A DNA stretch of 64,000 bases from assembly GCA_001586195.1 (NCBI GenBank), contig CP014609.1, positions 656,001-720,000 of the forward strand, written 5' to 3'. The DNA comes from Solibacillus silvestris. GTDB taxonomy: Bacteria; Bacillota; Bacilli; Bacillales_A; Planococcaceae. The position numbers were made by a program, and so were the translations under genes. The notes under the pieces are model-generated. The model was not told where the DNA came from and searched no databases. It saw nothing but the letters and a program-made list of their open reading frames with translations. This document shows, piece after piece, positions 29,628 to 33,675 of this stretch; within the stretch, counting starts at the first letter, position 1, and every line of letters starts with the position of its first letter.

Positions 29628-30104
29628 GTGTATAAATATTACGGAATCGCAATAATTGCAGTCATTTTGGATCAATGGACAAAGTGGCTCATTGTTAAAA
29701 ATATGGAATTAGGGGAACGCATCAGTGTATGGGATCCTTGGTTTGGCATTTTATCGCATCGTAACCGTGGTGCGGCATGGGGCATGTTGGAAGGACAAAT
29801 GTGGTTGTTCTCAGTTGTTACAGTTGCTGTCATTATCGCCATTATTTATTTTAATCATACAGAAGCAAAAGGGAAGCCACTTTTTCATGTAAGCTTAATG
29901 CTGTTATTAGGTGGCGCGGTTGGTAACTTTATTGACCGATTATTCCGTGGAGAAGTAGTTGATTTTGTCGATGTTTATATACCGGTAATCAATTATCATT
30001 TCCCAATCTTCAATATAGCGGACGCAGCTTTGACAATTGCTGTTGTAATGCTTTTCATTACGATCATACTAGAAGAAAAAAAGGATAAGAAAAAGGTGAA
30101 ATAA
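29628..30104 (+). CDS. lspA: lipoprotein signal peptidase II
   Basis: LspA cleaves the signal peptide of diacylglyceryl-modified prolipoproteins in the membrane. The 158-residue protein has four membrane segments and both catalytic aspartate regions: [18 protein letters not shown] and [13 protein letters not shown]. The conserved DQWTKW and NRGAAWGML motifs are also present. It starts at GTG with GGAGG about 8 bases upstream. Its stop shares one base with the start of the pseudouridine synthase gene. A likely client, the OppA lipoprotein, is encoded at 47901. Confidence 0.96.
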
Positions 30105-31006
30105 TGACAGTAGTCACATTAACAATAGAAGAATTTGCAGGGGAACGTATCGATAAGGCACTTTCACAAATGGAAGAATCTTGGTCACGTTCGCAAATTA
30201 GTAACTGGCTGGATGAAGAACGTATTTTAGTAAACGGTGCAGCCGTAAAAGCAAAATATAAAGTGAAGCAAGGCGACGTTATTGAAGTAACGGTTCCAGA
30301 AGTAGAAGATTTGGAAATTATTCCAGAAGATTTAAATTTGGAAATCGTTTACGAAGATGCGGACGTTTTAGTTGTGAATAAACCGCGCGGAATGGTTGTT
30401 CACCCGGCACCAGGCCATGCAACCGGCACATTAGTAAATGGTTTAATGCATCATTGCAAAGACTTATCCGGCATTAACGGTGTGGCACGTCCAGGTATTG
30501 TACACCGTATTGATAAGGATACGTCCGGTTTATTAATGGTTGCAAAAAATGATGTTGCCCATGAAAGTCTTGTTAATCAGCTTGTTGAAAAATCGGTAAC
30601 ACGTAAGTATACGGCTTTAGTACATGGTCATATTGCTCATGAAAAAGGAACAATTGATGCTCCAATCGGCCGTGACCAGAAAGACCGTCAAAAGCAGGCA
30701 GTTGTCGATAAAGGCAAGCATGCGGTTACACATTTCCAAGTGATCGAGCGTTTCGGTGAGTTTACTTTAGTGGAGTGCCGTCTTGAAACAGGCCGTACAC
30801 ACCAAATTCGTGTGCATATGAACTATATCGGTTTCCCGTTAGCAGGAGATCCGAAATACGGTCCAAGAAAAACAATCGATTTCGGCGGCCAAGTATTACA
30901 TGCAGGTGTATTAGGATTTATCCATCCTGTAACAAAAGAATATTTAGAGTTTGAATCACCGCTACCGGAAGATTTCAAACAATTAATAGAAGAATTACGC
31001 GGGTAA
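30104..31006 (+). CDS. ylyB: RluD-family 23S rRNA pseudouridine synthase (YlyB)
   Basis: The 300-residue enzyme should convert specific uridines of 23S rRNA to pseudouridine. It has an N-terminal S4 RNA-binding domain (about residues 12-75: RIDKALSQMEESWSRSQISN) and a catalytic domain. The active-site aspartate lies in HRIDKDTSGLLMVAKN near residue 138, and GRTHQIRVHMNYIGFPLAGD is conserved. It is directly coupled to lspA. RluD is the closest family, but the exact target uridines are not known from sequence. Confidence 0.92.
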   Translation: MTVVTLTIEEFAGERIDKALSQMEESWSRSQISNWLDEERILVNGAAVKAKYKVKQGDVIEVTVPEVEDLEIIPEDLNLEIVYEDADVLVVNKPRGMVVHPAPGHATGTLVNGLMHHCKDLSGINGVARPGIVHRIDKDTSGLLMVAKNDVAHESLVNQLVEKSVTRKYTALVHGHIAHEKGTIDAPIGRDQKDRQKQAVVDKGKHAVTHFQVIERFGEFTLVECRLETGRTHQIRVHMNYIGFPLAGDPKYGPRKTIDFGGQVLHAGVLGFIHPVTKEYLEFESPLPEDFKQLIEELRG

Positions 31007-31011
31007 TCGCG

Positions 31012-31047
31012 AACAGCCGTCTCCTTTTTGGAGGCGGTTGTTTTTTG
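31012..31047 (+). terminator. Rho-independent terminator after the lspA operon
   Basis: AACAGCCGTCTCC (31012-31024) pairs with GGAGGCGGTTGTT (31030-31042), with small mismatches, and ends in a T run. Confidence 0.88.
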
Positions 31048-31118
31048 TTTCGGGAGTTTTCGGCTGGAACCATTATATACTGCGTGTTGTGGCATTCAGG
31101 TAGCCTGTAGTGATATTA

Positions 31119-31440
31119 TTAGAACATTTGAAGTAGATATTAGAAAAAGTTGCGGTGATATTAGAAGATCTGTGGCTTTAATTAGAAAACGGGTGGGAAT
31201 GGTTTCGGTTTGAGTCATTATTTTCTGCATGTATTGATGTTCTGACAGCCTAAAATCTTTTTATTAGAACATTTAAAGTAGATATTAGAAAAAGCTCAGT
31301 ACATATTAGCACATTGGGGAGCTATATTAGAAAATCACGCATACTTATTTGAACAATGCGCCAATATATTAGAAGATACAGCATTTATTAGAAGATTTAA
31401 AAATATATTAGAAAATACAGCACACTTATTAGAAAATCAC
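31119..31440 (+). repeat. 21-bp phased array, family A (TTAGAA core), 13 cores
   Basis: Cores start at 31119, 31140, 31161, 31182, then 31264, 31285, 31306, 31327, 31348, 31369, 31388, 31408 and 31429. Eleven are exact TTAGAA; 31306 is TTAGCA and 31348 is TTTGAA. Nine of the twelve steps are exactly 21 bases; the others are 82, 19 and 20. Bases just before the core are usually ATA or TTA; the rest varies. The array lies between the lspA-operon terminator and the pyr promoter, in a gap of over 800 bases with no gene. One frame reads as IRK heptads but is broken by stops. The function is unknown. Confidence 0.8.
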
Positions 31441-31516
31441 TACCAAGACCAAATATAAAATAAAATTCACACTTTTCTAACATTAAATTTTAGTTGTCTG
31501 ACCTTCACTAAGTTAG

Positions 31517-31545
31517 TTGACTTATTAAATAATCAAGCCTATACT
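31517..31545 (+). promoter_or_regulatory. sigma-A promoter of the pyr operon
   Basis: TTGACT at 31517-31522 and TATACT at 31540-31545 are separated by 17 bases. It starts the leader that carries the first PyrR attenuator, with transcription expected near 31552. Confidence 0.8.
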
Positions 31546-31632
31546 GACAACAGTGAACTACAGAACTTGACGAGAGCAAGCAGGTAGTCACAGCAAATCA
31601 AATCAATCTGAATATTGTTCACCTTTAATGGC

Positions 31633-32354
<722 letters not shown>

Positions 32355-32376
32355 GTGAATACAGGGAGAGAACATC

Positions 32377-33675
32377 ATGACAAAAGCAGTATTGGATATT
32401 CATGAAAAACCTACAGTAGGGCAGCTGATTACATTTAGTTTCCAGCACATGTTTGCCATGTTCGGATCAACAATTTTAGTACCAAAATTAGTCGGGTTAA
32501 GCCCATCCATTGCACTTTTAACAAGCGGAATTGCGACAATTATCTTTTTGATCATTACACAGTTTAAAGTACCGGCTTACTTAGGTTCATCATTTGCCTT
32601 TATCTCTCCGATTATATTAGTAGCAGGCTTATCGGAAGCAGGTGTTGCGATCAACCCTGGAAATGCAATGATCGGGGCTATGATGGTCGGCGTTGTATAC
32701 GCAATCGTAGCATTATTAATCTGGAAAACAGGCTACAAATGGCTGATGAATATTTTACCGCCGATCGTCGTTGCACCAGTAATTATCGTTATCGGATTAG
32801 GGTTATCTGGCACGGCAGTCGATATGGCGATGAATGTAGACGGCGAATATAGCGGCCTTCACTTCTCGGCGGCATTGGTAACGTTAGCTACTGCGATTAT
32901 TTTCACAGTATTCTTTAAAAACATTTTAAGTGCAATGCCAATTTTAATGGGGATTATCGTTGGTTATATTTATTCGGTCATCATCGGAATCGTTGACTTC
33001 ACAGCTGTCAAAAATGCAAAGTTCTTCGCATTGCCGGACTTTTTAATCCCTGGTGTACACTATGACTTCCAACTGACAGGCGCAATTTTTATCGGAATGG
33101 TGCCGATTGTCATTGTGACGATTTCAGAACATATCGGCCACCAGCTAGTATTAGGGAAAGTTGTAAACCGCAACTTCATTAAAGACCCGGGCTTACATCG
33201 TTCGCTGTTAGGTGATGGCCTTGGAACATTTGCTTCAGCTTTGATCGGCGGTCCCCCAAAAACAACATACGGCGAAAACATCGGGGTTCTTGCTATCACA
33301 CGTGTATATTCAGTGTATGTAATTTTAGGAGCAGCAGTTGTGGCCATTGTCGTATCATTTTCGGGTCAGCTGATGGCACTGATTGAAACAATCCCGACAG
33401 CAGTACTTGGCGGTATTTCAATCCTGTTATTCGGGATTATTGCAGCAAGTGGTTTACGTATGTTAGTGGAGAGCAAAGTAGACTTCGGAAATAACCGTAA
33501 CATGGTCATTGCATCGGTAATATTAGTAGTCGGAATTGGCGGGGCGGCAATGCGCTTTACGGAAAGCTTTGCGATTGAAGGAATGGCATTAGCGTCGATT
33601 ATCGGTGTCATCTTGAACCTCGTATTGCCAGGTCGTGAAGTAACAGAAAAAGATATTTACGAAACAGAAGAATAA
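32377..33675 (+). CDS. pyrP: uracil permease
   Basis: PyrP is a proton-coupled uracil importer of the nucleobase:cation symporter 2 family. The 432-residue protein has about 12-14 membrane segments. Family signatures are FQHMFAMFGSTILVP near residue 21, GSSFAFISPIILV, the glutamate-containing TISEHIGHQLVLG near 250 and GGPPKTTYGENIGVLAITRV near 290. The start has GGGAGAG upstream, 22 bases after pyrR. No attenuator lies between pyrR and pyrP, unlike B. subtilis. Confidence 0.95.
   Translation: MTKAVLDIHEKPTVGQLITFSFQHMFAMFGSTILVPKLVGLSPSIALLTSGIATIIFLIITQFKVPAYLGSSFAFISPIILVAGLSEAGVAINPGNAMIGAMMVGVVYAIVALLIWKTGYKWLMNILPPIVVAPVIIVIGLGLSGTAVDMAMNVDGEYSGLHFSAALVTLATAIIFTVFFKNILSAMPILMGIIVGYIYSVIIGIVDFTAVKNAKFFALPDFLIPGVHYDFQLTGAIFIGMVPIVIVTISEHIGHQLVLGKVVNRNFIKDPGLHRSLLGDGLGTFASALIGGPPKTTYGENIGVLAITRVYSVYVILGAAVVAIVVSFSGQLMALIETIPTAVLGGISILLFGIIAASGLRMLVESKVDFGNNRNMVIASVILVVGIGGAAMRFTESFAIEGMALASIIGVILNLVLPGREVTEKDIYETEE

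Follow-up and report, generated by a model that had tools for sequence, protein, structure and literature searches.

What is the array of TTAGAA cores that lies outside any gene in front of the pyr operon of Solibacillus silvestris, and does it stand alone? In the window, by which we mean the whole stretch of 64,000 nucleotides analysed (contig CP014609.1, positions 656,001 to 720,000), direct reading of the sequence reproduced to the base what a preliminary description had reported, namely thirteen cores with core-to-core steps of 21, 21, 21, 82, 21, 21, 21, 21, 21, 19, 20 and 21 bp. Eleven of them are exact TTAGAA, starting at 31119, 31140, 31161, 31182, 31264, 31285, 31327, 31369, 31388, 31408 and 31429, and two depart from it by one base while keeping the register, namely TTAGCA at 31306 and TTTGAA at 31348. 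The cores form two blocks, which we call A and B, in the following setting:

30104-31006, upstream of the array: rluD-like ORF (name from reading the sequence)
31011..31043, + strand: intrinsic-terminator-like hairpin of the upstream rluD-like gene (sequence scan)
31119..31187, + strand: block A, four exact TTAGAA (31119, 31140, 31161, 31182) at a 21-bp period
31188..31263, + strand: inter-block gap, 82 bp from core to core
31264..31434, + strand: block B, nine slots with steps of 21 (five times), 19, 20 and 21 bp
31517..31545, + strand: pyr promoter-like site, TTGACT-17-TATACT, 3' of the array
31618..31756, + strand: PyrR binding site/attenuator, RF00515 (Rfam covariance-model match)
31812..32354, + strand: pyrR coding region (start codon by eye; name from sequence and leader)

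The slots of block B start at 31264, 31285, 31306 (TTAGCA), 31327, 31348 (TTTGAA), 31369, 31388, 31408 and 31429, and by eye the sequence of the gap resembles the stretch preceding block A. As described earlier, the array is intergenic and sits between the terminator-like hairpin and the promoter-like site. Since three promoter-like sites were found and shuffles give 2.8, the promoter-like call at 31517-31545 was made for its position ahead of the leader and not for its score. Exact TTAGAA-N15-TTAGAA pairs occur five times in the window (100 shuffles: mean 0.03, maximum 1), and a core-blind self-match scan of all 64 kb (lags 12-40, at least 50% match across 126 bases) returned the pyr array, at lag 21, as its sole match. 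An Rfam scan of 30900-32400 gave no match on the array; its reports were limited to the PyrR site and a trpB motif that overlaps this site below threshold (30.1 bits, gathering 59).

A dispersed family in intergenic positions

The pyr array is one member of a dispersed family. The organism's own genome (G000; 3,991,226 bases) contains 58 copies of the exact triple TTAGAA-N15-TTAGAA-N15-TTAGAA, overlapping ones included, and 172 of the pair, compared with 0 triples and 6 pairs for the reversed-pattern controls. A genome scan against chance had been set beforehand as the refutation test, and its outcome speaks strongly for the array. From stretches around the listed places we parsed 40 elements, each holding four or more exact cores. 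This number is a lower bound, because places with fewer exact cores were omitted (e.g. C1:2736850 and C1:1802926) and the matches were taken from those listed.

None of the 40 elements lies inside an ORF of more than 143 codons as defined by a simple caller, and in four cases the element shares 6-20 bases with the end of an adjacent ORF. Their flanking genes are tandem in 26 cases, convergent in 12 and divergent in 2. Background gaps of at least 150 bp in 344 kb of the same genome gave 79, 6 and 15 (n=100) with the 110-codon ORF cut-off that was also used for the elements, and 75, 7 and 16 (n=98) with a 90-codon cut-off. The arrays are therefore located mainly at gene 3' ends. On the earlier question of whether copies are confined to inter-operon gaps, all 40 parsed elements are intergenic. 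The position upstream of a promoter is not a common feature, because the copies prefer gene 3' ends, convergent gaps included.

We also considered a KOPS-like signal of replication polarity. Taking the replication direction from the skew switch points at about 3.75 and 1.75 Mb, a hand count found 22 of the 40 arrays running with replication, which is no bias, and this candidate was rejected. An origin at coordinate 1 was looked for as well, and no DnaA-like frame was seen among + strand frames of at least 300 codons in the first 6 kb. The terminus side appears thinly populated, with 5 of the 40 arrays in C1:1.2-2.4 Mb (400-kb bins).

Block plan, helical phase and what they suggest

The copies follow a common layout with differing spacers: block B consists of six slots at 21 bp, followed by steps of 19, 20, and 20 or 21 bp. 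Across a gap, a further block precedes it in 21 of the 40 elements, typically with four cores at 21 bp, so that the full plan reads block A (four cores, 21 bp), a gap of mostly about 82 bp, and block B. An exact 19-bp step is present in 32 elements; most of the remaining eight have lost one core there, which leaves a step of 39 or 40 bp. When the 32 elements are aligned on the 19-bp step, an alignment that fixes slots 6 and 7 as TTAGAA, this core stands at slot 1 in 23 elements, with a one-base variant in five more, and at the preceding slot 0 in none of the 32. Individual slots have characters of their own: slot 4 is TTTGAA in 14 of the 32, and slots 6 and 7 carry their own spacer letters.

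Spacer identity between different loci of these 32 blocks amounts to 43%, compared with 27% expected from composition, and reaches 67% in the best pair; for slots 1-4, the agreement is 0.388 in register and 0.344 when shifted by one slot. Because of this residual identity and the low best pair, the copies seem to share a common old origin, with none of the 32 being recent. A simple tandem repeat, in which the whole unit is alike and the copy number is free, would look different, as the mid-spacers differ and both the number of slots and the 19/20/20 end recur from copy to copy, although local gain of units does occur in G008. Among two loci of that genome (L324, L325) and the pyr locus of G012 (L377), we noticed an apparent recent gain of 20-bp units or of whole blocks and a deletion by which the beginning of block A is fused in register with the end of block B.

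The two-turn phase of the cores claimed for the pyr array extends to the family. Among 109 elements from G000, G008, G012, G007 and six single loci, a set whose counts are not independent because orthologues are included, core steps of 19 bp occur 75 times, of 20 bp 135 times and of 21 bp, the commonest, 430 times, with none at 22 or 23 and four at 17-18 bp; a single step of 22 is seen in the recA-rny array of G006. The long steps of the same 109 elements cluster at 70-73 (17), 79-83 (44), 90-93 (8) and 102-103 bp (4), and others fall between these classes, at 58-61 bp (15) and a few at 67, 75, 84-85, 95 and 108 bp.

The gaps, too, differ by mostly whole helix turns. In 22 G000 elements we could measure how far slot 2 of block B lies from the last core upstream; 21 of these distances lie within 70-140 bp, and one, at 57 bp, was set aside from the phase test. 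Twelve of the 21 measure 102-103 bp, and the other nine (82, 89, 91, 92, 111, 112, 113, 114 and 123 bp) agree with offsets from 102.5 bp, in either direction, by multiples of 10.5 bp (P about 0.0006 against random phase by simulation), in line with a period scan of these nine values that peaks at 10.5. The same distances in G008 peak at a period of 10.8 and not 10.5, which counts against this phasing. Between orthologues, 13 of 20 comparisons changed the gap distance by no more than 3 bp, five changed it by nearly whole turns (+21, -21, +10, -23 and -33), and three were off whole turns (-7, +45 and +29); some of these values are blurred by lost cores.

These steps bear directly on the idea, raised in the preliminary description, that the array is a decayed coding repeat. 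A period of 21 nt equals seven codons, short open stretches read as IRK or LLE heptads, and 6 of the 40 elements contain a fully open frame. However, the frame is broken by 19- and 20-bp steps that recur at different loci, 34 of the 40 elements are not fully open in any of the six frames, and conservation, judged by eye, is highest at the core and declines into the mid-spacer with no three-base rhythm. We therefore regard a coding origin as extremely improbable.

An element acting at the RNA level, in which the array would be transcribed by read-through out of the upstream gene or from a promoter of its own and the cores would be bound by an RNA-binding protein, fits somewhat better, as in tandem gaps the orientation of the array follows the direction of the flanking genes in 19 of 26 cases and the 5' units of the arrays are G-rich, unlike their tail. 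On the other hand, gap steps of helix turns have no reason in RNA, the pyr array lies 3' of a terminator-like hairpin, and the 1.5-kb Rfam scan was silent on it. Nor do the arrays form a stable fold: in 34 of the 40 elements (six of more than 330 bases were left out), the folding energy was not below that of spacer-shuffled controls (mean z +0.75; one of 34 below -2), and no common shape was visible by eye among five folds compared. RNA structure as the basis of the arrays was rejected for this lack of a folding signal over shuffled spacers, and the RNA-level explanation as a whole appears improbable to us.

We consider it moderately probable that the array is a DNA-level docking element for a putative sequence-specific DNA-binding protein. 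Each asymmetric core (approximately TATTAGAA, 8 bp) would be the contact site of one subunit, and cores in the same orientation about two turns apart would place the subunits head-to-tail on one face of the helix, where they might bind cooperatively. The plan would then provide nine sites with a tightened 19/20/20-bp end, preceded in about half of the copies by four sites and about eight turns of free DNA. A plan as fixed as this speaks for a nucleoprotein complex of set size and against an open-ended tandem repeat. A complex of this kind at gene 3' ends could separate neighbouring transcription units or hold the local DNA topology, and it is the placement of the arrays at gene ends that suggests such a boundary or topology role.

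Bacterial non-coding DNA is compact, and promoters, terminators, riboswitches or palindromic repeats as a rule account for it. Dispersed arrays that combine a rigid plan, phasing on one face and near-perfect conservation of the cores imply that both a DNA-binding system and a chromosomal function have to be added to this list, and they offer a way of finding out directly whether operon ends in bacteria carry boundary complexes. More tentatively, the arrays may represent a new class of bacterial chromosome element, i.e. phased docking arrays of fixed stoichiometry at operon ends which swap core dialects and serve a fast-changing binder family that organises the boundaries of transcription units. 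This broader reading would include the genus of S. silvestris together with further Bacillales that carry other cores.

Core retention, core swaps and distribution

Orthologous loci, paired by both flanks, support the initial view of a constant core and free spacers. Between G000 and G008, for which 25 of the 40 elements could be paired, 1401 of 1433 core positions are identical (0.978), compared with 0.671 in the mid-spacer and 0.58-0.61 in the flanks, and core identity exceeds mid-spacer identity in 24 of the 25 pairs; the average spacer identity at these orthologues is 79%. For G012 (13 pairs), the values are 0.942 for the core and 0.706 for the mid-spacer, with the core higher in 13 of 13, and for G007 (8 pairs) they are 0.923 and 0.497, with the core higher in all seven pairs that have mid-spacer data. 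Gap-aligned positions were excluded from these identities (55, 170 and 102 core bases for G008, G012 and G007, respectively), and cores were chosen as exact in G000 and not in the partner genome. Because the partner loci, the pyr loci excepted, were fetched for holding a triple, core retention is favoured to some degree. Along the unit, conservation peaks at the eight bases TATTAGAA and reaches its minimum at offsets of about 11-15. Besides selection, a process that copies the core could also produce such conservation.

At the level of whole sites, arrays come and go and exchange their cores within the genus. Judged by eye, the rluD-pyrR site carries an array in G000, G001, G004, G006 and G008 and a shortened one in G012, no array in G002, G003, G009-G011 and G013-G015, and a coding stretch in its place in G005 and G007, two genomes that look closely related by appearance rather than from a tree. 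The rpsA-der site holds TTAGAA arrays in G000, G001 and G012 (5, 7 and 3 exact cores), TTTAGYCAA at 21 bp in G004, G006 and G008 (four each; L418, L416 and L417), and neither of the two in the other ten congeners. At the recA-rny site, TTAGAA is found in G000, G001, G004, G005, G006, G008 and G012, TGRCGAAT in G007 (seven copies, L435) and CGYAAATA in G013 and G015 (six and three), and arrays of these three types are absent from the other six congeners. Loci L437 and L440 likewise show another array core with a period of about 21 bp at the same intergenic site in congeners.

The most plausible explanation is that the specificity of the putative binder differs between lineages. A swap of the core at one site between related species is in effect a natural experiment for finding the binder, which should track the dialect.

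The alternative core types are far rarer than TTAGAA. Pairs of TTTAGYCAA at 21 bp occur in 5 of 61 related genomes (three in G000, five in G001, eight in G004, four in G006 and four in G008), and pairs of CGCAAATA and of ATGAGCGAA in three of the 61 each; the reversed controls for the three types gave 0, 2 and 0 in total. In G032, eight CGCAAATA pairs within 600 bp (C1:3157628-3158224) look like a recent expansion. GTAGAA is a second core type in G000 (C1 near 96.1, 412.8, 423.0 and 2055 kb), and GTAGAA arrays of G000 and G008 carry TTAG-type cores at some slots (G000: L056 4833, L057 1015, L052 6089 and L542 near 4967; G008: L336 3102 and L342 196).

This variability could also come from a mobile repeat, either domesticated or still selfish and similar to REP/RAYT in its population behaviour, whose copies would have been spread by a transposase-like protein binding the core, with different core dialects carried by the lineages. 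Several core types, even at one site in different congeners, the variable presence of arrays among congeners, their niche in intergenic DNA at 3' ends and the slot-specific spacer remnants common to dispersed copies (again 43% against 27%) all agree with this explanation. However, recent copies are missing from the 32 G000 blocks, where even the best pair is less alike in its spacers than the average G008 orthologue (67% versus 79%), and 98% core identity at fixed loci amid spacer drift is not expected of dead copies. Moreover, the arrays show no hairpin signal, and the pyr array has no match among plasmid or phage records (blastn, E 0.01). Taken together, we consider a mobile origin of this kind unlikely, though it deserves more weight than an RNA-level element, and continue to favour the docking element.

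With regard to the range of the family, the exact TTAGAA triple is present in 14 of the 61 related genomes. Within the genus, these are 11 of 16 genomes with 8-133 triples each, some of the listed triples in the low-count genomes looking coding; outside the genus, three genomes have one triple each. Since five of the 16 congeners (G003, G009, G010, G011 and G014) lack the exact triple, the array element is dispensable on the scale of the genus; G000, G001, G004, G006 and G008 are rich in arrays. Among 398 genomes sampled from the class, with G000 as the one member of the genus, 16 contain the triple and none but G000 exceeds four. Look-alikes in intergenic positions were seen in Ureibacillus manganicus (TATTAGAA and CGYAAATA), Bacillus tianshenii (GTTAGAATG and CGATAGA), Alteribacter natronophilus (GTTAGAATAA) and Rossellomorea aquimaris (TTTTAGAAAA). 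The CGYAAATA array of U. manganicus lies on the reverse strand of L163 near 6646.

Self-matching of the congener loci (721,797 bases) gave 113 matches, 100 of them at lag 21, three at lag 20 and ten at other lags, nine of which look coding by eye; the density of these matches is uninformative, because the loci were mostly chosen for arrays. For a more general view, ten 20-kb stretches each of G009, G011, G033 and G140 were scanned. G011 gave one lag-21 match, ATGAGCGAA, which lies within a 104-codon stop-to-stop frame and is non-coding by eye. In G009 the lag-21 matches fall within frames of 91 and 176 codons, which is at the threshold, and in G140 within frames of 217 and 1340 codons; we took all of these for coding. 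The stretches of G033 gave no self-match at lags 20-21. With lag-21 matches this sparse, the array class is not found everywhere. A repeat at lag 22 (TATATTTACCGTAGA-like) in G011 (L463 18420), where no frame is open, possibly represents another type.

Among 120 loci listed from a three-core scan of viral contigs, 88 matches lie within frames of at least 100 codons, and the other 32 contain no fixed-plan array by eye; one contig (L309) has steps of 21 and 81 bp but near-identical units, and another (L243) carries the TTTTAGAAAA type at its end. The scan of GTDB gave at least 115 stretches; of those listed, 22 lie within frames of at least 200 codons, and tandem repeats with a unit of 7 bp or a near-exact one of 21 bp account for many of the rest. 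Among the matches listed, the Bacillales ones named above alone resembled the TTAGAA array element by eye.

Known systems and candidate binders

A search of open-access literature gave no published description of the array element. As a population, REP/BIME sequences with their RAYT proteins offer what we would call the closest analogue, since they likewise occur in many intergenic copies per genome, form lineage-specific types and persist over the divergence of species. REP units, however, are palindromes of 20-40 bp, in contrast to the direct, non-palindromic and helically phased TTAGAA cores, which give no hairpin signal. Directly repeated asymmetric sites in helical phase are known from plasmid iterons and ParR/parC-type centromeres. 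These adjoin their own rep or par gene, and parC has two blocks with a gap. The arrays resemble parC in having two blocks and a gap, but differ from both in that their 40 chromosomal copies lie beside unrelated genes; reading of the flanking ORFs at the 40 loci met no adjacent rep or par gene.

LytTR operators come close in geometry, as a repeat length of 9 bp together with a separation of 12 bp gives a period of 21 bp. Their direct repeats are mostly 12 bp apart and in a minority 11 or 13 bp, and the sequence of the repeats varies among systems with length and spacing kept (PMC6193735). The 19-21-bp steps of the arrays match this period of about 21 bp; however, a LytTR operator consists of two repeats just upstream of the -35 box (PMC6193735), unlike the arrays, whose 9 or 13 sites follow a fixed plan and lie mainly at gene ends, 12 of 40 in convergent gaps. 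LytTR protein matches number 4-6 per genome in all 16 congeners regardless of arrays (counts pooled over orthologue groups). By number, LytTR proteins thus do not track the arrays, the counts showing no difference between array-rich and array-free congeners. With the REP palindrome, the replicon gene of iterons and the promoter pair of LytTR each looked for and not found, we rate the array element as outside the known kinds.

No more than a lead to a candidate binder is an orphan HTH_Tnp_1/homeodomain-like protein of 106 aa that adjoins the core-richest element (15 cores) at G000 3008431, encoded in L074 near 2619 in G000 and in L330 near 1547 in G008.
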